NCBI GenBank assembly: GCA_017446685.1
Contig: JAFSQI010000083.1
Coordinates: forward strand, 1-64,000
Length of the DNA: 64,000 bases
Reading direction: 5' to 3'
Source: Butyrivibrio sp.
Lineage (GTDB): Bacteria; Bacillota; Clostridia; Lachnospirales; Lachnospiraceae
Of the stretch, positions 30,724-45,556 are shown in pieces (the stretch's first letter is position 1; every line of letters begins with the position of its first letter). A program made the position numbers and the translations under genes. A model generated the notes under the pieces. The model saw nothing but the letters and a program-made list of their open reading frames with translations, was not told where the DNA came from and did no database searches.

Positions 30724-32835
30724 ATGGGTCTTGTAAAATTAGAAAAAGGTCAGATACTTCACAGAGCTGCAAAAGACATCGTATCAACCATAGAAATTGT
30801 TGTAAAGGGAACTATTGGGATTTCCAACCAGTTCACTTCTATTTCTCTTGGTGTCGGCGGTCTTCTCGGAATCGTTGAAATTCCTGGAAACACATATATT
30901 TATACTTACGAAGCACTTGAAGAATGTGCTATTTACTCATATTCTTTTAATTCAGAAGAAGATATTCCTAAAGTAATCAAAGCTAACCCAAAGATTACTC
31001 CTATTCTTGCTGCGCAATGTGTTGAAACTGCAGCAAAATGCTGCGATGTATATGACAAAGAATATAATGAAGCTTTGTCGGAATACAATCAGATAATGCA
31101 GGATTATTCTGATTACCCTCAGCTTTGCATTAAGGTAGGTGAAGCAGCAAAAACTTTTCCGGAAATTGATCAGCTCATTTCGCCAGAGCGAAATAATGAC
31201 ATTCCCGAATGGTCATTTTCATTTATTCGCGGATTAAAAGATCATGATGCTGTTCTTAGAAAAAATGTCTATCCTTTAAGTCTGGATATAGCCATTGGTA
31301 TAATTATGATGAACTATACCGTTTTTTCCAAGATTTCAAATGCTTCTCAGCTTCTTATTGAATATCGAAAAGTATTAAAAACAAAAGCTTCTGCTTTCAT
31401 TTCCACAATGAAGGTAATTAGAGCCAAGTTAAATGATATAGAAAAGTCCGAAGAAAATGGCGAAAGCGTTGTAACTATTGTTAACGCTTTAAATACTATT
31501 TTACTTTATTCCGAACTTCCCCAGGATGTTACAACTAAATTTGAAGAAGAAATAAACGAATTTAAGAAAAATGAAAACCGTTATGATTCTTCCGACGAAG
31601 CACGTGCACTTAGACGTAGTATCGGGAATTCTTTTTATGATATATACTCCCATGCCTTTTTAAAGAGTCTAACGGATGAAGCTCTTCCAATGGAGCTTAA
31701 AATGTTCTTCATGTTTGGTTTTGTTGATGAAGAACTTGCAGGTGAAAAAAATACAGCGATTTTATACAACATGGCAAAAGCCTACACTCCTGATCCGGAT
31801 GGAAAGGTTCTGACAGTATATGAATGGCTAAAAAAGATATTTAACCTTGAAGTTGATCCTTCCAGAAACGAGTTTGATCAGGACTGGCCAACTTATTTAA
31901 GAGAACAAAAAACAAGCGGAAACATAACTCAGGAACAGCTTGATCGCATGACTAATTCGCCAACAAGCAGATTAAATTTTGAAATACACAATCTTTTTGC
32001 ACTTGGAAACAAAATGACTTTTGGAAGAATCTCCTCTTTTGTTCCTGTATTTGATGTACAAAATGTGCTAAGGCCATTAGATTCAGCATATCTTACTGCC
32101 GCCAGAATAAATGACTACTACAAAATGATTCGAAGTGTTGACTATGGTGTATTTTGCAGACAAGCAGTATATTCAAACACCGAGATTGGAATCACACAGC
32201 TTTACTACGCTGATGATATAACGCCTTACATGATTCTGATGCCCAACATAGGTTCAAGAGCCTCTCTATGGCAGGAAATTGAGGGCAAAAAAAGAAGCAC
32301 ACCTGCTCGTTTGGTTGTCTCCATATTTAACACAGAGAATACCGACGAATGTATGATAAAACTCTTTGGTGAATTCCGTTGGGAAATGTGTAAAACAGAG
32401 CAAGGCGTTCACTGGAATGATGTAACTGATCCTTCACTTACTTCAATGTACTGCGACTATCTTCAGTTTTATAAAAAGAATCCTGCACTCTCTGCAGATA
32501 ATAAGGAAAAGCTCAAAACAGATTTAAAGAAATACAGCAACAACTTCAAAAATATGTTTATAGCTGATTATCTTGCCTATGTTAAATTTGAAGCAGCAGG
32601 TTCTTTAAGGCTAAACAAAATTGCAAGAGAAATCTTATTTACTTTCTGTCCGTTTGCAAAAGAATTGCGTGAAAAGGTTGCAGAGAATCCTCAATACGGT
32701 GAACTAATAAATCACTACAACAACAGGATCAACAATCTTGCCAAGCCTGTAATAAATGCAATTCACAAATTAAATAAGGACGGTGTCGAAATTCCGCCTC
32801 AAATCAGTGGTCAACTTGAATATCTGAAAAAATAA
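30724..32835 (+). CDS. Large protein of unknown function with N-terminal cyclic-nucleotide-binding-like domain
   Basis: A 703-residue soluble protein I do not recognise. Residues about 1-95 resemble a Crp-type effector fold: strands ending in GGLLGIVEIPGN, then TYEALEECAIYSYSF, then a helix like the one after the Crp barrel. The Arg/Ser phosphate-binding cassette for cAMP is not evident and there is no helix-turn-helix. The remaining 600 residues are predicted largely helical, with Tyr/Lys-rich stretches, and contain no known catalytic motif. A GGAGG Shine-Dalgarno lies 7 bases before the ATG. It is a single gene with its own AT-rich promoter region and terminator, convergent with the GH43 operon. 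Function is not assigned. Confidence 0.85.
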   Translation: MGLVKLEKGQILHRAAKDIVSTIEIVVKGTIGISNQFTSISLGVGGLLGIVEIPGNTYIYTYEALEECAIYSYSFNSEEDIPKVIKANPKITPILAAQCVETAAKCCDVYDKEYNEALSEYNQIMQDYSDYPQLCIKVGEAAKTFPEIDQLISPERNNDIPEWSFSFIRGLKDHDAVLRKNVYPLSLDIAIGIIMMNYTVFSKISNASQLLIEYRKVLKTKASAFISTMKVIRAKLNDIEKSEENGESVVTIVNALNTILLYSELPQDVTTKFEEEINEFKKNENRYDSSDEARALRRSIGNSFYDIYSHAFLKSLTDEALPMELKMFFMFGFVDEELAGEKNTAILYNMAKAYTPDPDGKVLTVYEWLKKIFNLEVDPSRNEFDQDWPTYLREQKTSGNITQEQLDRMTNSPTSRLNFEIHNLFALGNKMTFGRISSFVPVFDVQNVLRPLDSAYLTAARINDYYKMIRSVDYGVFCRQAVYSNTEIGITQLYYADDITPYMILMPNIGSRASLWQEIEGKKRSTPARLVVSIFNTENTDECMIKLFGEFRWEMCKTEQGVHWNDVTDPSLTSMYCDYLQFYKKNPALSADNKEKLKTDLKKYSNNFKNMFIADYLAYVKFEAAGSLRLNKIAREILFTFCPFAKELREKVAENPQYGELINHYNNRINNLAKPVINAIHKLNKDGVEIPPQISGQLEYLKK

Positions 32836-32871: not shown

Positions 32872-33717
32872 TTAGGCATTAATATATTTTTTCTCAATAT
32901 TCTGTATAAACTCTCTGGCTGCAACAGCGTTGTCAGGCTTGGTATCTTCTAAAGTAGCATGGATAAATGGTTTCTTTTCTACGGCGAATTTAATTACACT
33001 ATCATAGTTGATTTCTCCAAGTCCGCAAGCCATACTCTTGACTGAATCACCTTCAACAACTGCATCCTTAAGATGGATCATACAAATATCTTTTGCAAGA
33101 ATATCTATTGCTTCCTCAAAAACCTCCTGTCTCTGATCAAAGTTATCAGTCCAAAGAAGATTAACAGGATCAAAAATAATCTGAAGATTAGGTGATTCTA
33201 TTCTATCAAGAACCTCTCTTGCTCTCTTCGGATTCCATACAATATGTCTGTAAACAGGCTCAATAGCTACAATTACGCCCATCTTTTCAGCATAATTTAC
33301 AACAGGCTTAAGATTAGTTATAAATGTTTCAAGCGCCTCTTTAGAATGACACGCCTCTTTGTCATAAGTATATCCTGTATTTGGAGCACCTGTCTCAGTA
33401 CCTACCATACCCGCTCCCATCAGTGAAGCAAATCTGATATGAGCCATATACTTATTCTGAGTTGCCTTCAATTGCTCAGCATCAGGTGTTGCAAGATTGA
33501 GATAACATCCAAGTACAGCCACATCAAGGTCAGCTCTTCTAAATGCATCCCTCATATACATCGCATATCCGGGAGTAAGTGCTGTTGGATCTGCAGTAAA
33601 ACCGGGAACCTTTGAAAGAGCTATATGCGTACATGTAAATCCCTGTTTCTTAATCTCCTGTAATCTTTCCTCGAAAGGCAGTTCTTTAGTGTCATGAAAT
33701 CTGATTCCTATCTGCAT
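32872..33717 (-). CDS. Sugar phosphate isomerase/epimerase-like TIM barrel protein
   Basis: A 281-residue protein of the xylose-isomerase-like (AP endonuclease 2) superfamily. Candidate metal-binding residues are visible in VAIEPVYRH (Glu), IIFDPVNLLW (Asp), MIHLKDAV (His) and HATLEDTK (Glu). The fold covers ketose epimerases, hydroxypyruvate isomerases and related enzymes, so the substrate cannot be read from sequence alone. It is the last gene of the SGNH - GH43 - ankyrin-GH43 operon. That position suggests it handles a monosaccharide released by those hydrolases. Confidence 0.85.
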   Translation of the reverse strand: MQIGIRFHDTKELPFEERLQEIKKQGFTCTHIALSKVPGFTADPTALTPGYAMYMRDAFRRADLDVAVLGCYLNLATPDAEQLKATQNKYMAHIRFASLMGAGMVGTETGAPNTGYTYDKEACHSKEALETFITNLKPVVNYAEKMGVIVAIEPVYRHIVWNPKRAREVLDRIESPNLQIIFDPVNLLWTDNFDQRQEVFEEAIDILAKDICMIHLKDAVVEGDSVKSMACGLGEINYDSVIKFAVEKKPFIHATLEDTKPDNAVAAREFIQNIEKKYINA

Positions 33718-33743: not shown

Positions 33744-35681
33744 TTAAGTTTGAACATTTATATCTTCATAAAAACTATTTGAAAAATCGACCAATAAATC
33801 ATCAAAAGCCCCTGAAAAAGCATACATTCCCACAAGTGCTCCTGTAAATCTTTTTCCCTTTTTAAGCCCTTCGTCACATAAATAATATACATTATCAAGT
33901 ACATTAAAAGGTATTATTTCTGATTTTTTTCCACTGGTTTCCAAAAAATTATAATACAATTTTCTTGTAAGATAAGATGTTTCCATCTTAAAACTTATAC
34001 CGCAAAACTTATCTTCTATTTTTTTCGAAAACTGCCATTTGTCATCATCACCAATGTGTTCTCTAGTGTAAACAAAAGTATCAGGCCCTTTTTTTATTAT
34101 ACCAAATTCAAAAAAAGTATTTTCATCATAATATCCGGTTATACCAGCTCTTTGAGAATCTTTAAGCTCATGCTCTGATATATTCAAATCAGCGCTATAG
34201 TTAAAAGAAAAAGATGTCTGTCTTCTAAGAACAATGTTTCTGCTATTTACATCAGATAAATCATATTTGCTTCCTTTAATCACAAAATGCTTTCCATTTT
34301 TATCTTCTTTATATGAAATATCTCCGTTTTTGAATGTTCTTGGAGTCATATAATCCATTGGAAGTCCGCAATTTGATACCATAGTTTTATTATATTCAGT
34401 CTTTTTCATCTCAGGAAAAGGATTTATCTGCATACATGAAGGTCCCTTTAAATTATTGACAACAGGCCATCCATCAGCTGTCCACGTAACCGGATCAATT
34501 GCAGTTTCCCGCCCAAGAATGCTATATTCATCATTCATTTTTCTTCCACAAAGATAGACCATGTACCATCGTCCGTCCGGTGTGTCGACAAGATCTCCAT
34601 GCCCGCATCGTTGAATAAGCGCATCCTCATCCTCCTGACGCATTATTGGATTGTAGGGACAAGGCTCATAATTGCCGAATAACTCTTTCGACCTTGAAAC
34701 AGTCACGCGATGCCCTGGACCTGTTCCTCCCTCTGCTTCAAGAAGATAATAATATCCATCTTTTTTATAAAGATGTGGTCCTTCAGGCGCTCTCTTATGA
34801 TCTCCATAAAACAAAAGCCTTGCATCTGATATCTGCCTGGTTGCTGTTTCATCCAGTTCGAATATTCTGGCTCCTCGATTTAAAAGCATGTATCTTTTGC
34901 CATCATCATCATTAAAAATACTTGGATCAATTCCATCTTCGTCAATAAATGCCGGCTCAGAATAAGGGCCTTCAGGTTTATCCGAAGAAACGACAATCTG
35001 TCTGCGATAAACAGGTGGTACATCATTTAATCTATAAGTGGCAGTTATGTAAAATCTACCTTTGTAAAAAGATATATCCGGTGCCCAAAAACCTCTTCCA
35101 CCTTCAAGTTTGTCAATTCCTGCCCATTCAGGATTAGTAATTGCATACCCAATAATTTCCCAGTTAATGAGGTCTTTTGAATGAGAAACCGGAATACATG
35201 GGAAAAAGATAAACGAAGAATTGACCATATAGTAATCATCTCCGACTCTGCAAATAGACGGATCAGGAAAAAAGCCACATCTTATGGGATTACGATAAAA
35301 ATCCTCATAAGGATGTTCATATTTGTCAGCAAGATAATCGTCAATTTCTTTAGAATAATAATCTTTATTTCTCACAATATCCCATGGTGTACATAGATTC
35401 TTGTCGCCTTTAAGCGGGTCCATTCCACATTTTTCTACAAGATATTTAAAAAGCTTGTAATTTCCTGATTCTGCAGCATAATGAAGAACATTTCTATGAT
35501 TATCATCATATTCATTAAGACTTATCCTTGAATATTCAACACGCCACTTAACTATTCCAAAATCACCTATTCTTGCAGCCTCAAAGAAACATTCTTTATT
35601 TATTAACGTTGGTTCATTTATCAATATTTCGCGAACTTTTTCAAAATGGTTTTGCCGTATTTCATCAATTAAATTACTCAT
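33744..35681 (-). CDS. Ankyrin-repeat - GH43 glycosidase fusion
   Basis: A 645-residue protein without signal peptide. Residues 1-125 hold ankyrin-type repeats (CFFEAARIGDFGIVKW, NVLHYAAESGNYKLFKYLVEKCGMDP, TPWDIVRN). From about 135 a GH43 five-bladed propeller begins: general base Asp140 in FFPDPS, pKa modulator Asp252 in IDPSIF, acid Glu300 in APEGPHLY. A C-terminal beta-sandwich (about 430-640) completes the usual GH43-xylosidase layout. It lies 21 bases after the other GH43 gene. GH43 enzymes cut xylosyl, arabinosyl or galactosyl ends, here on imported oligosaccharides in the cytoplasm. Ankyrin fused to a glycosidase is unusual; the reading frame is continuous, so the fusion is real in this sequence. 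Confidence 0.9.
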   Translation of the reverse strand: MSNLIDEIRQNHFEKVREILINEPTLINKECFFEAARIGDFGIVKWRVEYSRISLNEYDDNHRNVLHYAAESGNYKLFKYLVEKCGMDPLKGDKNLCTPWDIVRNKDYYSKEIDDYLADKYEHPYEDFYRNPIRCGFFPDPSICRVGDDYYMVNSSFIFFPCIPVSHSKDLINWEIIGYAITNPEWAGIDKLEGGRGFWAPDISFYKGRFYITATYRLNDVPPVYRRQIVVSSDKPEGPYSEPAFIDEDGIDPSIFNDDDGKRYMLLNRGARIFELDETATRQISDARLLFYGDHKRAPEGPHLYKKDGYYYLLEAEGGTGPGHRVTVSRSKELFGNYEPCPYNPIMRQEDEDALIQRCGHGDLVDTPDGRWYMVYLCGRKMNDEYSILGRETAIDPVTWTADGWPVVNNLKGPSCMQINPFPEMKKTEYNKTMVSNCGLPMDYMTPRTFKNGDISYKEDKNGKHFVIKGSKYDLSDVNSRNIVLRRQTSFSFNYSADLNISEHELKDSQRAGITGYYDENTFFEFGIIKKGPDTFVYTREHIGDDDKWQFSKKIEDKFCGISFKMETSYLTRKLYYNFLETSGKKSEIIPFNVLDNVYYLCDEGLKKGKRFTGALVGMYAFSGAFDDLLVDFSNSFYEDINVQT

Positions 35682-35702: not shown

Positions 35703-37364
35703 TTATATTTCTGTTGTATGTACATAAAGAAAATCTGCATATCCTTTGCTGTCAACATTATCCGAAAGAGAATAAATTCCTACTTTTGCACCAACCCAGG
35801 TATGATCTGAAGGAGTATATGAAACTCCCAAATCCATCAGATTAGAAGAATCCTTACCAATCTGCAAGCATATTTTCAAAACAGGATTTTTTCCACCTAA
35901 AGGCTTGAATACGTTTTGAAAATACATATCATCTGATGATAATGTCTTATCTTCATGAGAAAATTCCATTTTCCACAATATATTTTTTATTGCACTATCT
36001 AAAGAAATACCTTTTTCCTCGCAATACTGTGACAAAGAAAACTTGCTTTCTATAATTTCTTCTTTGTTATCATCCTGTCCTTCAGAATTAATTACCACTA
36101 CAAAATATTCATCATTTTCTTTTTCAAGAAAAGCTGAAAGGTATTGTCCTCCTGTCATACAAACGCCTGCTCTGTCTCCTGATAAAAGACCGGACGCATC
36201 CATAAGAATTTCCGTCTTAAACATTGGATAAATAAGCTTTTGAGTAAGAACATTTGAGCTTTTCCAGATGATAGGCTCTTTTTCTCCGGATGGATTTACT
36301 GCAAATAATCTTAAACCATTTTTTCCATCATTTACTTTACCGCAAAAAGAATCGTAATGGTTTCCAAGCCATTGCCACAAAAGTCCATAACATCCGTTTT
36401 CAAAATCATCTGATGATTCCAAATAGCAAGGTTCATCAATTACACCAGTATTTGGCTTATTCATCTCATAAACAGGTTCTCCGCAATTTTCACTATCAGG
36501 ATTTCCCCCGATTATAGGCCATCCGGCTTTCCATACTACAGGCTGCAAATGACATATTCTTCCATAAAGTCCTCTATCCTGAAAATGAATAAACCACTCA
36601 TCACCATTTACAGTATCAATAAGTGCTCCTTGATGAGGTCCATTAATTACGGTATTACCTGTATGCATTACCTCTTTAATTTCATAAGGGCCATAAATAT
36701 TTTTACTTCTAAGAGCTACCTGATATCCCTCTTTAACGCCTCCGGCAGGAGCAAATATATAATAATAACCGTCTCTTTTATAGACTTTTGGCCCTTCTAT
36801 TGTTACAGCAGGATGCTCAGGATCATTGCCATTAAAAATAAAATGATCCTCAGTCAATGCTTTTGTTCCATCAGGAGATATTTCGAAAATGCCTAGAATA
36901 CTCTTAAATCCGATTCTACTTTTTGCATAGCCATGGATAACATACGCTTTTCCGTCATCATCCCAGAAAGGACAAGAATCGATAAGCCCCTTTCCAGGCA
37001 AAATACAAATAGGCTTATCCCACTCTCCTAAAGGATCTTTTGTTTTCACAACATAGAATCCTTCATCAGGCATGCCGTAAAAAATAAAGAAATATCCATC
37101 ATGATATCTTATTGCCGGAGCCCAGATTCCTTCAGAATGTCTCGGAATATCAAAACGTTTTTCTTCAATATTTTTTACCGCATAATTAACCAGCTTCCAA
37201 TTAACCATATCTTTAGAAATAAGTATCGGAAGTCCGGGAGTATAGTTAAAGCTGGAGGCAGTCATATAATATGTATCGTCAACTCTTATTACATCAGGAT
37301 CACTGTAATCCGCAAACAAAATCGGATTTCTGAAATTTGTTCCAAGGTCTGCATAATTTCCCAT
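35703..37364 (-). CDS. GH43 beta-xylosidase/alpha-L-arabinofuranosidase
   Basis: A 553-residue cytoplasmic glycosidase. The start is set at 37364 (MGNYADL) because AGAGG lies six bases before it; an ATG seven codons upstream overlaps the preceding gene and lacks a good Shine-Dalgarno. GH43 residues are visible: Asp22 in YSDPDVIR (base), Asp129 in IDSCPFWDDDG (modulator), Glu190 in TIEGPKVY (acid). A C-terminal beta-sandwich of about 200 residues follows. No signal peptide, so it acts on imported oligosaccharides. It is coupled to the SGNH esterase upstream and the ankyrin-GH43 gene downstream. Confidence 0.93.
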   Translation of the reverse strand: MGNYADLGTNFRNPILFADYSDPDVIRVDDTYYMTASSFNYTPGLPILISKDMVNWKLVNYAVKNIEEKRFDIPRHSEGIWAPAIRYHDGYFFIFYGMPDEGFYVVKTKDPLGEWDKPICILPGKGLIDSCPFWDDDGKAYVIHGYAKSRIGFKSILGIFEISPDGTKALTEDHFIFNGNDPEHPAVTIEGPKVYKRDGYYYIFAPAGGVKEGYQVALRSKNIYGPYEIKEVMHTGNTVINGPHQGALIDTVNGDEWFIHFQDRGLYGRICHLQPVVWKAGWPIIGGNPDSENCGEPVYEMNKPNTGVIDEPCYLESSDDFENGCYGLLWQWLGNHYDSFCGKVNDGKNGLRLFAVNPSGEKEPIIWKSSNVLTQKLIYPMFKTEILMDASGLLSGDRAGVCMTGGQYLSAFLEKENDEYFVVVINSEGQDDNKEEIIESKFSLSQYCEEKGISLDSAIKNILWKMEFSHEDKTLSSDDMYFQNVFKPLGGKNPVLKICLQIGKDSSNLMDLGVSYTPSDHTWVGAKVGIYSLSDNVDSKGYADFLYVHTTEI

Positions 37365-37377
37365 GTTTTTCCTCTTT

Positions 37378-38100
37378 TCATCCATTTATTTCAATATCAG
37401 AATTAGCTTCAAGAAGCTCCTTTGCTGCAATTAAAGAAGCATACGGATTCCCAAGCTCCAATAAGCCTTTAGCTATCATTCCGGAATAAAGGCATGCTCC
37501 TTCATATTTTAAGTGTGAATTGTCTTTTTTGCCTTCAGGTGCCCATGAAGCCTCCCCCGGTGCAAGATTCATATAATATTTTTTTGAAGCTTCATCACCT
37601 GTCTTTTCAAGAAATTCTCTGCTCATCGAAAAAAGATCAACAATCGGAACGTCAAACTTTTCAGCAGCTTCTTTCATCCCTTTCACATATTCTGTATGCT
37701 CGGAATCCTTCAATTTACCATTCTCATCAAATAGTCGTCTCTCAACCGATGTAATAAAAACAGGATAAGCCCCCTTATTTCTTGCCACATTAACAAACTT
37801 ACCCAAATTGACTATAAACTCTCCATGAGGGTCTGTATATCTTGTAGGATCTTTTATCTTTTCATCATTATGGCCAAATTGAATAAAAAGATAATCTCCC
37901 GACGTAATCTCATTGTAAATTGTTGCAAGTCTGCTTTCATCAATGAAGCTCTTTGTGCTTCTTCCATTTACAGCGTGATTATAAATGACAACATCTTCTT
38001 TAGTATATCTGTCAAATGCTTGAGCTATACCGGTCTGCGGATATGTATTAAATTTGTTACAGGCAACTGTTGAATCTCCTGCCCAAAATATGTGTCTCAT
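37378..38100 (-). CDS. SGNH hydrolase, rhamnogalacturonan acetylesterase-like
   Basis: A 240-residue esterase. The nucleophile is Ser10 in WAGDSTVA, block III is QFGHNDEK, and the catalytic Asp-His pair is in the C-terminal DNSHLKYEG. The pattern fits carbohydrate esterase family 12 (RhgT/YesT type), which removes acetyl groups from rhamnogalacturonan; acetyl-xylan is another possible substrate. I use the ATG at 38100, preceded by AAGGAG; earlier in-frame starts are TTG or inside the Shine-Dalgarno. It has no signal peptide and is the first gene of the GH43 operon. Confidence 0.88.
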   Translation of the reverse strand: MRHIFWAGDSTVACNKFNTYPQTGIAQAFDRYTKEDVVIYNHAVNGRSTKSFIDESRLATIYNEITSGDYLFIQFGHNDEKIKDPTRYTDPHGEFIVNLGKFVNVARNKGAYPVFITSVERRLFDENGKLKDSEHTEYVKGMKEAAEKFDVPIVDLFSMSREFLEKTGDEASKKYYMNLAPGEASWAPEGKKDNSHLKYEGACLYSGMIAKGLLELGNPYASLIAAKELLEANSDIEING

Positions 38101-38221
38101 AATCATTCTCCTTTTCAACAAATATATTGTAATTTTATAAATTTTAAAAAATTATTTATAGCGTCGACTTGACTAATATATTGCTTATTTTTCACAAATA
38201 CATTTCATCAATCCTTACTCA

Positions 38222-38305: not shown

Positions 38306-39181
38306 TTATTCTTTTACAGCTCCTACATTAACACCCTGTACAAAGTACTTCTGAAGGAAAGGATATGCAACCATGAAAGGAAGAATTGCACAAACAATAG
38401 CTGCATAATACAAAGTATTCTGTGATACTTTGTAAGCTGTCGTCGGCGTATCACCGTCCATGATCATAACTCTCAGCTTGTACTGGAAGTTAACCTGATC
38501 AGGATTTGTAATATAAATCTGTACTGTGCTGTAGTCATTCCATACAGTTACCGCATACATAAGACCAATTGATGCAAGTGCTGCCTTGGAAAGAGGAAGT
38601 ACAATTTTGAAGAAAATACCCATTGGAGAGCAACCATCAATTTCGGCTGCCTCAAAAAGTGAGCCTGGAATTCCTTCAAAGAAGTTCTTCATAAGTACAA
38701 GGTTATATACATTCATACCATGCTTTATAACCAGAATCCACATTGTATCAACCAAATGGAGCTGTTTCATAACAAGGTATTCAGGAATCATACCGCCGGA
38801 GAATATCATAGTAAAAAGGAGGAAGAAAGACATTGCACTTCTGCCCGGCATTTCATTTTGTGTTAAAACATATCCACCAAGAGTTGATAAAACAAGACCA
38901 AGTAATGTTCCAAGTACAGTAGTGATAACTGAATTAAGGAAAGGTCTATAAAGTCTAACTGTTGTAAAAATAGTAAGGTATCCGTTAACTGTAAAATCTT
39001 CAGGCCATAGTTTGAACTGGTAAACACCTACAGCATTAAAAGAATCTACTAAAACCTTCCAAATAGGAATGAGAACTATAAGAGCAACAATAACGAATAC
39101 AACATAGTTTACTACGTCAAATACATGTACTTTATTTTTATTAGCTTTTACACGTACCTGCTCCATCTTTGCCTGTGCCAT
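38306..39181 (-). CDS. Carbohydrate ABC transporter permease (LplC/YtcP type)
   Basis: A 291-residue membrane protein with six transmembrane helices. The permease loop EAAEIDGCSPMGIFFKIVLPLSK (coupling motif EAA---G) lies near residue 190, and it ends in the typical FVQGVNVGAVKE tail of LplC/YesQ permeases. It pairs with the permease upstream and the lipoprotein at 40320. As usual for this subfamily there is no ATPase gene in the operon, so a shared MsmX-like ATPase elsewhere must energise it. Flanking genes suggest oligogalacturonide, rhamnogalacturonan or xylan oligosaccharides as substrate. Confidence 0.93.
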   Translation of the reverse strand: MAQAKMEQVRVKANKNKVHVFDVVNYVVFVIVALIVLIPIWKVLVDSFNAVGVYQFKLWPEDFTVNGYLTIFTTVRLYRPFLNSVITTVLGTLLGLVLSTLGGYVLTQNEMPGRSAMSFFLLFTMIFSGGMIPEYLVMKQLHLVDTMWILVIKHGMNVYNLVLMKNFFEGIPGSLFEAAEIDGCSPMGIFFKIVLPLSKAALASIGLMYAVTVWNDYSTVQIYITNPDQVNFQYKLRVMIMDGDTPTTAYKVSQNTLYYAAIVCAILPFMVAYPFLQKYFVQGVNVGAVKE

Positions 39182-39193
39182 AATGTTCCCTCC

Positions 39194-40150
39194 TTAAATA
39201 ATTCCGCGTCCACGAACTTTCTTACTAGCGTAATTACATACAAGAACAAGTACGCAACCTACAATTGATTTAAACAAACCAACCGCGGTCGTATAACCGT
39301 AATCTGGTATCGCAGTAAGGAAGGTCTGACGGTAAATATATGTTGAAATTACATCGGAAACATCGAAAACACGGTTATTATATAATACGAATACTGACTC
39401 AAAAAGATTGAGAACCTTAGCAAGGTTAAGAATCAGTACAATAATTACTGTGTTCATAAGTGCAGGAACTGTTACATACCAAATCTTCTGAAGTCTGGAT
39501 GCACCATCGATATCTGCAGCTTCATAAAGCTCAGGATTGATACCTGAAAGTGTTGCCAGGAAAATAACTGTTCCCCAACCTGTCTCTTTCCAGATATTAA
39601 TCAAGTAGAAAATTGGTCTCCACATTGACTGAGTATGAAGGAAATCAATACTCTGGCTCAAAATTCCCCATGACTTCAAAGTTTCATTTACAAAACCTGT
39701 TGAAGATTTAGAGAGGAACAACTGGAAAATAGCAGCTACAACTGCCCAAGACATAAAGTGTGGTAAATAGATAATTGTCTGCAAAGATTTTTTTGCAAAC
39801 ATGTTATGCATCTCATTCAAGAAAACTGAAACAAGAACTGATGTAAGTGTTGTAATGATAAGTTTAGTAATTGAAATCTGTAAGGTGTTACTAAAAGCTG
39901 TCCAGAACTCCTTTTTAGCGAACATAGTCTCGAAGTTCTTAAGTCCTACCCATGTAATATTCCTGAGTTTATACTCGTAAAAAGCATAACGCACACCAAG
40001 CATTGGCCAGTAGTAAATTATAATTACAAATACAAGAACCGGCAAAAACATAAGATAATAACCGCGATTATTCCAAATACGAGTGCCTAGAGGTTTCTTG
40101 TTGATAGGAGCGCCTGTGGATGTAGTAGCAACATTCTGATTCTTACTCAT
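39194..40150 (-). CDS. Carbohydrate ABC transporter permease (LplB/YteP type)
   Basis: A 318-residue permease with six helices, the YYWPMLGVRYAFYEYKL N-terminal segment typical of LplB, and the coupling motif EAADIDGASRLQKIWYVTVP. It starts after a hairpin terminator that follows the binding-protein gene. Its leader holds a TATAAT flanked by GTTTACG and CGTAAAC arms, so it may also have its own promoter. A GGAAGAGG Shine-Dalgarno is present. Confidence 0.93.
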   Translation of the reverse strand: MSKNQNVATTSTGAPINKKPLGTRIWNNRGYYLMFLPVLVFVIIIYYWPMLGVRYAFYEYKLRNITWVGLKNFETMFAKKEFWTAFSNTLQISITKLIITTLTSVLVSVFLNEMHNMFAKKSLQTIIYLPHFMSWAVVAAIFQLFLSKSSTGFVNETLKSWGILSQSIDFLHTQSMWRPIFYLINIWKETGWGTVIFLATLSGINPELYEAADIDGASRLQKIWYVTVPALMNTVIIVLILNLAKVLNLFESVFVLYNNRVFDVSDVISTYIYRQTFLTAIPDYGYTTAVGLFKSIVGCVLVLVCNYASKKVRGRGII

Positions 40151-40319: not shown

Positions 40320-42014
40320 TTACTGTGCATTAAGTTCAGAAACGATCTGCTCTGATACATCGCCATAAGCTTCTACGTACTGAGCTACTGCTTCTTCAGG
40401 TGTAATTTCACCTGCTACAGCCTGCTTCATAAGAGTAGTCTTAACTTCAACAAGCTCAGCCTCAACTTCTGTAAGAGTTTCGCAAGAAGCTGCTGCAGGA
40501 GCGTCTACACAGTTCTCTGTGAAGAACTTGTTACCTTCTGCAACGAGTTCATCATTATCAACGAATCCGTTTGTAAGAGGAGCAATTACAAGTACAGCAT
40601 CAAGGTGATTCTTCTTCCACAATGAGTTAGGGTCATTAGGAGACTGCTTAAGGTGGAACTCACCATCAGCATATTCGTATGATTTCTCATTTTCTGTACC
40701 TTCGTTTGTCTTGAAGGACTCAGCCTTTGTTGACCAGTGAACGTCCTCAGCACCATATGTCCAAAGTGTCTGAACTCTGTCACCATCAAGCATTGTCTCA
40801 AGAAGTGCATCAAAGATAGCCTGCTCACGAGAATCATTGCCATCCTGATCGTCTGTAATTACCCATACAGGAGCTTCTCTGTTGAGGTATCCGCCCCATG
40901 TATCCTTGATTTCCTGAATAGGAGCAAGCTGTACAAGTCTGTCATCACCAAGATCGTTGTCAACTTCCTGCTTCTCCATGTTTGTTGTAAGAGTTCTAAG
41001 CCATGTACCAGCCCAGTATGTGAATACACCTTCTGATGTTGACTGGTCATTTGAGAAGAACTTCTCACGAGCCTGCTTTGTTCCTGCATCCTCAGTATCA
41101 GGATCGATTACGCCATCAGCATAACCCTGAGCAAGTCTTGCAAGAGCATCAATTGTAGCCTGCTCTGTGAATCCGTCTACCCAAACACCATCCTTCTGAT
41201 AGAATGAAGGATAAGCGCCCTGCCAGAACTCAGGCATGTAGTTGATATATGGAGCCTCATCAAGCTTACCATAACCTGCAGCGATTACGCCGTATGTTCC
41301 TGCTGAACCGTTTCCATCTGGATCATTTTCTGTAAATGCCTTAAGCATTGCATAGTAATCATCAAATGTCTTGATATCCTCTGCCTTCATTCCTACAGCA
41401 TCAAGCCATGACTGCTTAACATAAGTAACACATCCGTTACCATATGTAGGAGCGAAACCATAAAGAGCACCATCAGAAGTCTTCATGTTCTCGTTTACTG
41501 AAGGAAGTGTAACACGAGACTGGAATTCAGCATTTTCATAAGCATCAGCCATGTTCCAAAGAAGACCTGTTGTCTGATACTGTCTGAGCATTGTTGCGCT
41601 CATGATAAGAGCATCAGGATATCCTTCATCACCAGGCTGACCTGTTGTAAGAAGACGTGATACTGTGCCTGAGTAATCTGAGTGATCAAGCTGGTTGATG
41701 TTGAGCTTGATAGGATGTCCAAGCTTCTCAGAAACAGCTTCTTCCCACTGCTGAACGAATTCAGCCTGTCCGCTCTCAACTGTTGCTGTTACAGTACCGT
41801 CAACAACGATGTTAAGAGTCTCAAGAACATAATCCTCAGCGGCTGCAGTATCTGTTGTTGATGTTGCTGTTGTAGAATCAGATGTCTGTGTCTCTGTTGT
41901 TGTGTTGTCACCAGTTGTAGTAGTTGTTGTTGTTCCTGCATCTGTGCTTCCGCATGCTGCAAGAGAAGCTACCATTGCTGTTGACAGAAGTAATGATAAA
42001 ACTTTCTTTTTCAT
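40320..42014 (-). CDS. Extracellular sugar-binding lipoprotein of an LplABC-type importer
   Basis: A 564-residue lipoprotein with lipobox SLAAC (Cys21), a Thr/Asp-rich linker (about 23-55) and a large type-1 solute-binding fold typical of LplA/YtcQ proteins. The start is placed at 42014 because GGGAGG lies ten bases before it; the upstream in-frame ATG overlaps that Shine-Dalgarno. It delivers oligosaccharides to the two permeases downstream. Its promoter has near-consensus boxes and a perfect CG-centred palindrome just after the start of transcription, so it is probably repressed in the absence of substrate or under good carbon supply. Confidence 0.92.
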   Translation of the reverse strand: MKKKVLSLLLSTAMVASLAACGSTDAGTTTTTTTGDNTTTETQTSDSTTATSTTDTAAAEDYVLETLNIVVDGTVTATVESGQAEFVQQWEEAVSEKLGHPIKLNINQLDHSDYSGTVSRLLTTGQPGDEGYPDALIMSATMLRQYQTTGLLWNMADAYENAEFQSRVTLPSVNENMKTSDGALYGFAPTYGNGCVTYVKQSWLDAVGMKAEDIKTFDDYYAMLKAFTENDPDGNGSAGTYGVIAAGYGKLDEAPYINYMPEFWQGAYPSFYQKDGVWVDGFTEQATIDALARLAQGYADGVIDPDTEDAGTKQAREKFFSNDQSTSEGVFTYWAGTWLRTLTTNMEKQEVDNDLGDDRLVQLAPIQEIKDTWGGYLNREAPVWVITDDQDGNDSREQAIFDALLETMLDGDRVQTLWTYGAEDVHWSTKAESFKTNEGTENEKSYEYADGEFHLKQSPNDPNSLWKKNHLDAVLVIAPLTNGFVDNDELVAEGNKFFTENCVDAPAAASCETLTEVEAELVEVKTTLMKQAVAGEITPEEAVAQYVEAYGDVSEQIVSELNAQ

Positions 42015-42053
42015 TAAATTTGTTCCTCCCATATTTAATGTTTAAGTTAAAAA

Positions 42054-42330: not shown

Positions 42331-43833
42331 TCAGAGTGTAACTCCTCTCTTCCAAATTGCCATATCATGGAATCCTGCTTCTTCACTCTTTAATTTTTCT
42401 CCTGAAGCAGTTCTTAATATCTTGTCAAACAACTCATCTGTAAGCTCATCGAATGTTCTGCCCTCAAGAATCTGACCAGCTCTAAAATCAATCCAGTTTC
42501 CTTTTTTATCAGCGATTGTGTTGTTACTTGCAATCTTCATAGTAGGTACAGGACATGCAAAAGGTGTTCCTCTTCCTGTTGTAAACAGAACAATCTGTGC
42601 GCCGGCACTTGCAAGCGCTGTTGCTGCACATAGATCATTTCCCGGTGCACACAAGAGATTTAGACCTCTTACATCCGTTCTATCACCATATTCCATAACA
42701 TTCATAACAGGGTAGTCACCAGACTTCTGCGTACATCCAAGTGATTTATCTTCCAGTGTTGTGATTCCACCAGCTTTATTTCCAGGAGAAGGATTCTCAT
42801 AAATAGGCTCACCCTGCTTTGTGAAATAATCCTTGAAACCGTTTATCATATTTACAGTATCATTAAATGTAGCCTCATCTTTACATCTGTTCATTAGGAT
42901 AGTTTCAGCACCGAACATTTCAGGAACTTCTGTAAGAATAGATGTTCCGCCATATTCAATTATTCTGTCGGAAATTCGTCCAACAAGGGGATTTGCTGTG
43001 ATTCCGGAGAATCCGTCACTTCCTCCGCACTTAAGACCGATTATAAGTTTGGAGCAATCAACTTCTTCTCTTTCATCTTTACTTACATTATCAATTATCT
43101 CTTCCAAAAGTCTGAGTCCATCAGCCATTTCATCATCTGACTGCTGGCAGACAAGGAATTTAACTCTTGATTCGTCAACTTCACCAATATAAGGCTTTAA
43201 AACATTAATATTGCTGTTTTCGCATCCAAGTCCTAAAACAAGAACACCTCCGGCATTTGGATGATTTATAAGATCAGATAGAATTGTTCTTGTATGCTCC
43301 TGATCATCACCTGTCTGAGAACAGCCATAATTATGGGTAAAAGCAATTACTTCTTCCACACTGCCCTTTACAAGCTTATTTGCTTTATTAGCAAGAGCTG
43401 TTGCTATATTATTAACACAGCCAACTGTTGGGATGATCCAAACTTCATTTCGTATTCCAACTTTGCCATTCGCTCTTACAAAGCCTTTAAATGTTCCTTT
43501 TTTGGTACCCATTTTGGCAATTTTCTTATCTATATCTTCTTTATCAGGTGTATATTTGTATTCGAGTATTCCCTCAAGATTAGTCTTAATATCGTGAGTA
43601 TGCACCCATCTGCCTATAGAGATGTCCTCTGTTGAATGTCCAATTGCATAGCCATATTTAACAACATTATCGCCATTTGAAATATTCTTGACAGCCATCT
43701 TATGTCCTGCAGGTACATCCTCCACTGCAGTAACTTCTCTGCCATCAGAAAGGGTTATTGTCTCACCCTTAGCCATGGGTTCGAGACATACAACTACGTT
43801 ATCTTCAGGATGAATCTGTAAAAATCTGCTCAT
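42331..43833 (-). CDS. uxaA: Altronate dehydratase
   Basis: Dehydrates D-altronate to 2-keto-3-deoxy-gluconate in galacturonate catabolism. The 500-residue protein has a small N-terminal SAF domain (1-95) and the large dehydratase domain with FTHNYGCSQTGDD, LGLGCENSN, IGLKCGGSDGFSGITANP and FTTGRGTPFACPVPTMK motifs. It is divergent from uxaC, which makes the precursor tagaturonate. The tagaturonate reductase (uxaB) and the KDG kinase and aldolase are not in this window. An AAGGGG Shine-Dalgarno precedes the ATG. A CG-centred palindrome sits at its start of transcription. Confidence 0.96.
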   Translation of the reverse strand: MSRFLQIHPEDNVVVCLEPMAKGETITLSDGREVTAVEDVPAGHKMAVKNISNGDNVVKYGYAIGHSTEDISIGRWVHTHDIKTNLEGILEYKYTPDKEDIDKKIAKMGTKKGTFKGFVRANGKVGIRNEVWIIPTVGCVNNIATALANKANKLVKGSVEEVIAFTHNYGCSQTGDDQEHTRTILSDLINHPNAGGVLVLGLGCENSNINVLKPYIGEVDESRVKFLVCQQSDDEMADGLRLLEEIIDNVSKDEREEVDCSKLIIGLKCGGSDGFSGITANPLVGRISDRIIEYGGTSILTEVPEMFGAETILMNRCKDEATFNDTVNMINGFKDYFTKQGEPIYENPSPGNKAGGITTLEDKSLGCTQKSGDYPVMNVMEYGDRTDVRGLNLLCAPGNDLCAATALASAGAQIVLFTTGRGTPFACPVPTMKIASNNTIADKKGNWIDFRAGQILEGRTFDELTDELFDKILRTASGEKLKSEEAGFHDMAIWKRGVTL

Positions 43834-43955: not shown

Positions 43956-43984
43956 TTGTATTTGCTGATACTGTCTTGTATAAT
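43956..43984 (+). promoter_or_regulatory. uxaC promoter
   Basis: TTGTAT (43956-43961) and a perfect TATAAT (43979-43984) with 17-base spacing. The leader to the uxaC ATG is about 145 bases. Confidence 0.7.
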
Positions 43985-44001
43985 ACATTTGAAAAAATAT
44001 A

Positions 44002-44015
44002 TGAAACTGCTTACA
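44002..44015. promoter_or_regulatory. Degenerate operator in the uxaC leader
   Basis: TGAAACTGCTTACA differs from the operator at 42054 (TGAAAACGCTTACA) at two central positions. It lies just downstream of the predicted uxaC start of transcription. The central CG is TG, so binding would be weaker. Confidence 0.4.
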
Positions 44016-44137
44016 TTATTTTTATATCTTTTCATTTTTTTGAAAAAGATTATATTGTACTGATTTCATATTGTTTATTTTCACTTTTTAATATATTGAA
44101 TAATAATATTTTTTTACTAAAAGGGAGGTTATTTGGG

Positions 44138-45556
44138 ATGAGAAAATTCATGGACAAAGATTTCCTGCTTCAGTCTGAAGCTGCCAGGAAACTTTATCAC
44201 GATTATGCCGAGAACATGCCTATTCTCGACTACCACTGTCACATCAGTCCAAGAGAAATAGCTGAGGATCGTCATTTTGACAACATTACACAGGTTTGGC
44301 TTGGCGGTGATCATTATAAGTGGCGTCTCATGAGAGCATTTGGTGTAGACGAGAAATATATGACAGGAGATGCCTCTGACGAAGAAAAGTTCCTTATGTT
44401 TGCAAAATGTCTTGGAAAGGCTGTAGGCAACCCTCTTTATCATTGGGCTCACCTTGAACTTCGCAAGTATTTCGGATATGACGGTATTTTAAATGAAAAG
44501 ACTGCAAAAGAAGTTTATGATCTTTGCAATAAAGTTCTTCAGTCTCCTGATATGAGTGTAAGAAAGCTCATAAAAATGTCAGGTGTTACACTTATCTGTA
44601 CAACAGATGATCCTATCGACACACTTGAATGGCATGACAAGATCAAAGCTGATCCAACTTTTGATGTAAAGGTTCTTCCGGCTTGGCGTCCTGACAAAGC
44701 TAAAAATATCACTAAACCTGAATTTGTATCATACATTAATACTCTTTCCGAAATAAGCGGAGTAAAGATCGACTCCTTTAATTCATTGAAGGAAGCTCTG
44801 AGAGTAAGACTTGACTACTTTGCTTCAAAGGGCTGCAATGTTACAGACCATGCTCTTGAATATGTAATGTACCATCCTGCTACTGAGGAAGAAATCGAAG
44901 CCATCTTTGCTAAGAGACTTGCAGGCGGTGAGCTTACAAAAGAAGAAGACTTAAAGTACCAGACTGCTTTCATGCTCTTTGAGGGCGAAGAAATCTCTAA
45001 GAGAGATTGGGTTATGCAGCTTCACTTTGGTTGTAAGCGTGACAACAATACTCCTATGTATGAGAAGCTTGGTCCAGACACAGGTTTTGATACAATAGAT
45101 GCTTACTACCCTATGGCTGAGCTTGCTGATTTCCTTGATGCTCTTCATTCAAAGAAAATGCTTCCTAAGACCATACTTTACAGCTTAAATCCTAATGATA
45201 ACAAGATTATTAATACAACTCTCAATGCGTTCAATGAAGCTCCTGTTGTTGCAAAGATTCAACAGGGAAGCGCATGGTGGTTCAATGATACCAAGCTCGG
45301 AATGGAAGAACAGCTTGCTTCTGTTGCAGAATCCGGAAACCTTTCAGGTTTTGTAGGAATGCTTACAGATTCAAGAAGCTTCACATCTTATACAAGACAT
45401 GACTACTTCCGCCGTATTCTCTGCAACTACCTTGGTTCACTTATTGAAAATGGTGAATATCCTGAGGAAGAACTTGATACACTCGGTGAAATAGCTCGCG
45501 ATATTTCTTACAACAATGCTGTAAGATACTTTAAATTTCCTTTAGAAACGAGATAA
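44138..45556 (+). CDS. uxaC: Uronate (glucuronate/galacturonate) isomerase
   Basis: Interconverts D-glucuronate/fructuronate and D-galacturonate/tagaturonate. The 472-residue protein shows the family motifs ILDYHCHISPREIA near the N-terminus (metal-binding His pair), TTDDPIDTLEWH, ASKGCNVTDHALEYVMYH, and GMLTDSRSFTSYTRHDYFRRILC. The start is ATG 44138, with GGGAGG nine bases upstream. A longer frame beginning TTG at 43976 would start before the promoter -10 box and is rejected. It is followed after 3 bases by a LacI regulator gene. Together with UxaA it indicates uronate use from pectin or glucuronoxylan. Confidence 0.97.
   Translation: MRKFMDKDFLLQSEAARKLYHDYAENMPILDYHCHISPREIAEDRHFDNITQVWLGGDHYKWRLMRAFGVDEKYMTGDASDEEKFLMFAKCLGKAVGNPLYHWAHLELRKYFGYDGILNEKTAKEVYDLCNKVLQSPDMSVRKLIKMSGVTLICTTDDPIDTLEWHDKIKADPTFDVKVLPAWRPDKAKNITKPEFVSYINTLSEISGVKIDSFNSLKEALRVRLDYFASKGCNVTDHALEYVMYHPATEEEIEAIFAKRLAGGELTKEEDLKYQTAFMLFEGEEISKRDWVMQLHFGCKRDNNTPMYEKLGPDTGFDTIDAYYPMAELADFLDALHSKKMLPKTILYSLNPNDNKIINTTLNAFNEAPVVAKIQQGSAWWFNDTKLGMEEQLASVAESGNLSGFVGMLTDSRSFTSYTRHDYFRRILCNYLGSLIENGEYPEEELDTLGEIARDISYNNAVRYFKFPLETR

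Follow-up and report, generated by a model that had tools for sequence, protein, structure and literature searches.

A 64,000-nucleotide stretch of a Butyrivibrio sp. contig (the window) encodes an enzyme, here called B, in which ankyrin repeats (Ank) stand in front of a family 43 glycoside hydrolase (GH43) domain; a second GH43 enzyme, A, is encoded next to it. The reading that we favour, at a probability of roughly 0.44, is that A and B form a cytoplasmic pair in which an Ank module gained once would hold B in position, most probably docked on A, and that the pair acts most likely on pectic oligosaccharides. B would be the second half of a two-enzyme unit. The two enzymes would finish imported, decorated plant oligosaccharides, either in sequence or together, and Ank would serve as a protein-contact element that fixes the geometry of B, most probably against A. 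What we infer from comparisons of genes and genomes is that Ank docks on A physically, that the substrate is pectic, and that product is channelled between the enzymes.

B is encoded by a complete open reading frame of 645 amino acids on the minus strand (33744..35681). The ankyrin region spans residues 1-122 (35316..35681, minus). Pfam places Ank_2 at residues 9-89 (E 1.2e-7, 32.6 bits against a cut-off of 27.3), and Ank_4 and Ank_3 are likewise above their cut-offs. The Pfam match stops at residue 89; a family profile and conservation extend the ankyrin part to about residue 122. The GH43 catalytic domain at residues 129-406 (34464..35297, minus) covers the full Glyco_hydro_43 profile (positions 1-288 of 288, E 3.5e-81). 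These two domains had been recognised in an earlier, sequence-only reading, which overlooked a third: a concanavalin-like GH43_C2 domain at residues 440-634 (33780..34364, minus; E 2.7e-19). The three acids named in that reading, which we take to be catalytic from what is known of GH43 enzymes, are intact. The codons of Asp140 (35262..35264), Asp252 (34926..34928) and Glu300 (34782..34784) all lie on the minus strand, and the residues are invariant in two alignments: A1, which combines the window with the Ank loci L061-L088 except L069, L083 and L085 (25 of 28), and A2, which has 54 rows.

The ankyrin assignment, which a profile search could have overturned, is borne out by the Pfam matches. 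The best ankyrin-type match in the PDB covers residues 32-106 (E 1.1e-10). A chance or artefactual match is ruled out by the score above the Pfam cut-off and by recurrence of the architecture in other genomes. A separate gene mis-joined to B is also ruled out: homologues in other genera share the N-terminus in the same frame, and frame and architecture are identical in dozens of genomes. A Pfam search of all six frames of the assembly that contains the window (3.24 Mb, 88.75% complete) found Ank_2 at E <= 0.001 in B only; Glyco_hydro_43 matches 15 stretches. PDB entries 6ms3/6ms2 have the same GH43 domain followed by a C-terminal GH43_C2, and residues 126-625 of B align with them (E 3e-123). 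However, their 538-amino acid chain is matched at positions 27-521, which leaves no room for ankyrin; B adds residues 1-122.

The cytoplasmic location proposed earlier for B holds; its N-terminus has no hydrophobic stretch. Averaged over 12 residues, hydropathy on the Kyte-Doolittle scale peaks at 0.67 within the first 40 residues, by a scan that is not a signal-peptide predictor. By the same scan, in which a downstream ATG was taken for L067 and L071, the peak is at most 1.46 in the 28 Ank loci L061-L088 but at least 2 in 38 of 51 Ank-less homologues (L089-L140).

A (35703..37385, minus) has 560 amino acids and contains GH43 and GH43_C2 domains. It lies upstream of B and is co-directional with it; acidic motifs corresponding to the GH43 active site are present. 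Also on the minus strand are a GDSL esterase (37378..38121) with a weak match, far below the cut-off, to the pectin acetylesterase PaeY; two carbohydrate ABC permeases identified by profile matches (38306..40150); a likely solute-binding protein (SBP; 40320..42032), which has no Pfam match of its own but whose relatives adjoin permeases; and, again by profile matches, a D-galactarate/altronate dehydratase-type enzyme (42331..43833). Glucuronate isomerase (UxaC) is encoded on the plus strand (43976..45556). Immediately downstream of B is an epimerase-like protein with a xylose-isomerase-like TIM barrel (32872..33717, minus). For a 703-amino acid open reading frame at 30724-32835 (plus), neither Pfam nor NCBIfam gives a match at E <= 0.001.

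Imported pectic oligosaccharides are suggested by these surroundings, because they include the PaeY-like esterase, the galactarate/altronate-type dehydratase and UxaC. Judged from the genes around it, the likeliest substrate is a pectic oligosaccharide decorated with xylose or arabinose. In Monoglobus the neighbours of A are a pectinesterase, a GH28 enzyme, a tagaturonate reductase and an altronate dehydratase; Bacteroides finegoldii has a protein related to A (41.5% identical) that is encoded beside a GH88 enzyme and an alginate-lyase-family protein. It should be noted that PLSDB holds plasmid-labelled records of Monoglobus pectinilyticus and B. finegoldii (NZ_OY725742 and NZ_OY725939) which contain housekeeping genes (era, recO and scpB; mnmA) and so look like pieces of chromosome. 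In the portion of a Butyrivibrio transcriptome study drawn on here, GH43 genes are up on pectin and some are up on xylan; these genes are not matched to the gene for B (PMC6344614).

The Ank-GH43 enzyme is a widespread type in rumen and gut Clostridia. The same architecture, sought in other Lachnospiraceae as the sequence-only reading had advised, recurs in 21 of the 299 genomes sampled from the window's family, and no two of the 21 share a genus code; short or split matches were added to this count from inspection of the loci. An independent Pfam search over the 299 found Ank_2 in 64 genomes; the 21 carriers are among these 64, each with a match at B. Within Butyrivibrio itself, Ank-bearing B is found in 25 of 61 sampled genomes. 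Carriers include Butyrivibrio sp. CB08, YAB3001, XPD2006, AE2015, MC2021 and NC2007, and B. proteoclasticus P18. A second Clostridia family (coded f20) contributes nine genomes, of which seven belong to one genus; the Ank profile was verified in five of the nine. M. pectinilyticus has an Ank-B whose ankyrin part is confirmed by Pfam; its record annotates the protein merely as 'family 43 glycosylhydrolase', and the gene lies by itself amid housekeeping genes.

Trees of B indicate that the Ank module was gained once, at the root of the B clade. On a 52-row tree of the catalytic domain, built under a mixture model, the Ank-bearing enzymes form one clade with support of 98/94, obtained with a bootstrap that had not settled; 37 of its 38 members bear Ank. 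The sister of this clade is an Ank-less group, B', which includes Bacillus. The rows of this tree were chosen and cover about the first 300 residues of B (for L089-L091 and L104, the first 360 of the open reading frame), without L170. A larger, quick tree of 76 rows, which omits L051, L172, L085, L160, L170 and identical copies, recovers the same clade with an SH-aLRT of 99, the quick trees having flagged long branches; Ank is present in 55 of 56 members. Two losses are apparent. L141, a genus member inside the Ank clade, has an Ank-less B fused directly to A. L170 falls inside the clade on a 30-row quick tree, and a search of its six frames with the ankyrin profile at E <= 10 gave zero matches. 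Both are long branches of uncertain position, and L170 is placed only on a quick tree. A was not found in the genome that holds L170 (100% complete), where the best match to A (5.7e-23) is the L170 enzyme itself.

The ankyrin region of B comprises about four units: a weak first unit (residues ~1-33) and a core (34-122). Conservation was calculated from 50 sequences under 80% identical, and the set used for this and for the joint described below leaves out L051, L172, L085 and L160. The first unit is weakly conserved (0.35 across its 14 sufficiently filled columns), and three sets of sequences lack it: a Butyrivibrio subclade, a few distant members, and all four loci where A, Ank and B share a frame. 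The subclade (L071, L072, L074-L078, L148, L151, L152 and L156) lacks the same unit as those four loci, and its A and B are separate genes. The mean top-residue fraction of ankyrin units 2-4 is 0.59, above that of C2 (0.51); the catalytic domain reaches 0.82. E49, Y50, S51, S54, N56, R63, G86, P89, G92 and D93 are each 82-96% conserved. Set against the usual ankyrin consensus, these residues presumably lie mostly in loops between units, and both conserved loops appear to be one residue longer than standard. In one Butyrivibrio metagenome-assembled genome (L085, identical with L160; 1221-3251 and 3957-6626), low-complexity inserts occur in both GH43-A and Ank-GH43-B; among them are a repeated stretch resembling 'AEKEQPS' ahead of C2 and, within the fourth ankyrin unit, a long insert.

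The poor conservation of the first unit, and its absence from the Butyrivibrio subclade and the A-Ank-B loci, would be expected if Ank were a passive N-terminal extension, inherited without a function of its own. We regard this as very improbable: 55 of 56 clade members retain units 2-4 (55 of 57 if L170 is added), and the loop residues are strongly conserved among sequences that are under 80% identical.

A more serious competitor comes from the joint between Ank and GH43. From the last Ank helix to the start of GH43 there are 18 residues in 68 of 75 sequences and 17 in the other seven, whereas the loop just ahead of the joint varies from 13 to 81 residues. Because the joint is nearly fixed in length while the preceding loop varies, Ank is probably held rigidly relative to B's own enzyme. 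The Ank core might therefore sit on the GH43 propeller of B, stabilising it or shaping the cleft, with no partner involved. Retention of Ank where A is distant or missing, and in the four loci where A and B are joined, is consistent with such a role, as is the Monoglobus gene that stands by itself among housekeeping genes. However, the Ank-less sister group B' and the apparent losses L141 and L170 manage without the module, and ankyrin repeats usually bind proteins. An intramolecular role is a tentative option, nearly as likely as docking on A.

Docking on A has to be judged first against how often the two enzymes occur together. Of 62 genomes carrying Ank-B, 60 also encode A: 19 of 21 from the family sample, 24 of 24 further genomes of the genus, 10 of 10 further genomes of the class sample, and seven of seven further genomes. 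One genome (G739) was dropped from this count since its contig and coordinates match those of another (G307), and one (G041) was counted as A-bearing from locus data, its best single match to A being merely 1.3e-52. The two Ank-B genomes in which A was not found are G253 (97% complete, best match 1.4e-37) and G277 (82%, best match 5.3e-40). Within the family, 18 of the 21 genomes with Ank-B contain A (19 if G041 is counted), as do 18 of the 278 without it (Fisher 3e-16, kinship ignored); within the genus the figures are 25 of 25 against 10 of 36 (Fisher 2e-9, kinship again ignored). The family association is lopsided: at the cut-offs used, 11 genomes have A and neither Ank-B nor B'. A is also found in all seven family genomes that have B' and lack Ank-B, so the co-occurrence of A and B may reflect a shared substrate only. 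It indicates that both enzymes work on the same thing, and it is silent on whether Ank binds A.

In the window, 21 bases separate the open reading frames of A and B. Among 36 adjacent pairs, which include one Ank-less locus (L168) and one with a broken frame (L042), the first ATG of B overlaps the end of A by 4-7 bases in six. Programmed read-through of a stop codon joining A and B was considered because the stop of A in the window is in frame with B. It is ruled out by the even spread of the frame offset over these pairs (11/11/14), a single in-frame stop separating the two in eight of the 36. In many genomes A is encoded away from Ank-B, which also rules out a strict bond between Ank and an adjacent A. 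Among the seven further genomes, A is not beside Ank-B in six and is adjacent in L086; the Monoglobus A is on another record of the same strain.

The same loci bear on other possible partners. The sequence-only reading had offered the neighbouring GH43, the esterase and the importer alike as proteins to which the repeats may tether B. Among 55 Ank-B loci (listed duplicates removed, loci cut by contig ends included), A is encoded in 38, the first permease in 40, the solute-binding protein in 37 and the GDSL esterase in 36, and these counts would suit docking on another cytoplasmic protein or on the membrane importer (esterase, ABC system or catabolic enzyme) as well. However, the esterase and the importer are both missing around several relatives. 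In L198-L202 none of the window proteins searched for, apart from Ank-B, was found nearby, and in Monoglobus none is annotated beside Ank-B; A is still encoded in all of these organisms. A partner other than A is improbable on these grounds.

Further evidence on A comes from natural fusions. Three genomes (L044, L045 and L048) encode A-Ank-B as one open reading frame of 1131-1189 residues. In L042 the frame is broken within A, and the C-terminal part of A continues unbroken through Ank and B. In L044 and L045 only 10-13 residues separate the C2 domain of A from Ank by the Pfam bounds; judged from these frames, the C-terminus of A and the N-terminus of Ank are near each other in at least some relatives. 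Fusions of A to B' without Ank occur in four genus members (L142 and L145-L147), and L141 is a B-A fusion without Ank in which B is N-terminal. Since the fusion label changes three times on the 52-row tree and five times on the 76-row tree, A and B were, by this count, joined more than once. The closest solved relative of A is PDB 6mly, a bifunctional GH43-CE enzyme (19-440 aligned, E 3e-52). That enzyme joins a GH43 covalently to a second activity; in the window A is encoded by a gene of its own, with a second GH43 rather than an esterase as partner. Two Prevotellaceae open reading frames of about 1110 amino acids (L114 and L121) have a B-like GH43 as their C-terminal half. Their N-terminal halves gave a best E of 0.037 against A and the other window proteins tried, which is not significant.

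The Ank core persists in all four A-Ank-B loci, so the module is not just a stand-in for a covalent linkage. The idea that fusion simply replaces Ank is thus not upheld in general, although L141 fits it. Ank has apparently been lost in L141, where A and B are fused, and in L170, whose genome lacks a detected A; it is kept in the four A-Ank-B loci and in G253 and G277, where A was likewise not found. We would place Ank against A because of the fusions, the two apparent losses and the pairing of the genes. As the order A-Ank-B suggests, Ank could also be wedged between A and B and contact both.

Of the tethering proposed earlier, the part that concerns the neighbouring GH43 is therefore kept, in conditional form: adjacency, the presence of A in nearly all Ank-B genomes, the fusions and the two fitting Ank losses argue for it. 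The fused loci that keep Ank, the Ank-less B' that occurs with A, the frequent distance of A, and the 97%-complete genome that keeps Ank-B without A argue against it. The part that concerns the esterase and the importer is weaker.

Ank might instead drive self-association of B into a dimer or higher oligomer. Many GH43 enzymes are oligomers, and oligomer shape matters in the family. Several PDB entries for GH43 beta-xylosidases have at least four chains, although the number of chains in a crystal does not establish an oligomer. Self-association is not set apart by any of the sequence data, and we give it a small chance, slightly above that of a partner other than A.

Docking on A, if right, would have a parallel in cellulosomes, in which non-catalytic modules gather carbohydrate enzymes. 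The differences are considerable: A and B are intracellular, there are two enzymes, ankyrin takes the place of dockerin and cohesin, and binding is hypothetical here. Closer to B in setting are the cytosolic, oligosaccharide-processing GH43 enzymes described, in the part of the report drawn on here, from B. proteoclasticus, a member of the same genus (PMC5217386). They differ in that the word 'ankyrin' is absent from the main text of that paper, as it is from the main text of PMC6912079; strain P18 of the species carries Ank-B (L071). Among the open-access matches listed, judged by titles and the beginnings of abstracts, none describes an Ank-GH43 enzyme, and as far as that literature shows the type is apparently undescribed. 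It varies the domain architecture of a well-known enzyme family, and its mechanism can be tested. It does not amount to a new category, since each module by itself is ordinary and the effect of their fusion is hypothetical.

To our knowledge, little is known of how bacteria organise the cytoplasmic enzymes that degrade oligosaccharides, which are mostly treated as free, independent proteins. Many genera of rumen and gut Clostridia retain an ankyrin-bearing glycosidase, and the natural fusions are ready-made constructs for testing whether two glycosidases act as one unit; they may also be used for building enzyme pairs for plant-fibre processing. We hold it possible, with the tentativeness that comparative data impose, that Ank is an intracellular docking module which brings two glycosidases of gut Clostridia together in one cytoplasmic complex. 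If that is true, separate genes held together by Ank, A-Ank-B polypeptides and direct fusions without Ank would be alternative routes to the same complex, and this complex would be a small intracellular counterpart of the extracellular enzyme scaffolds.
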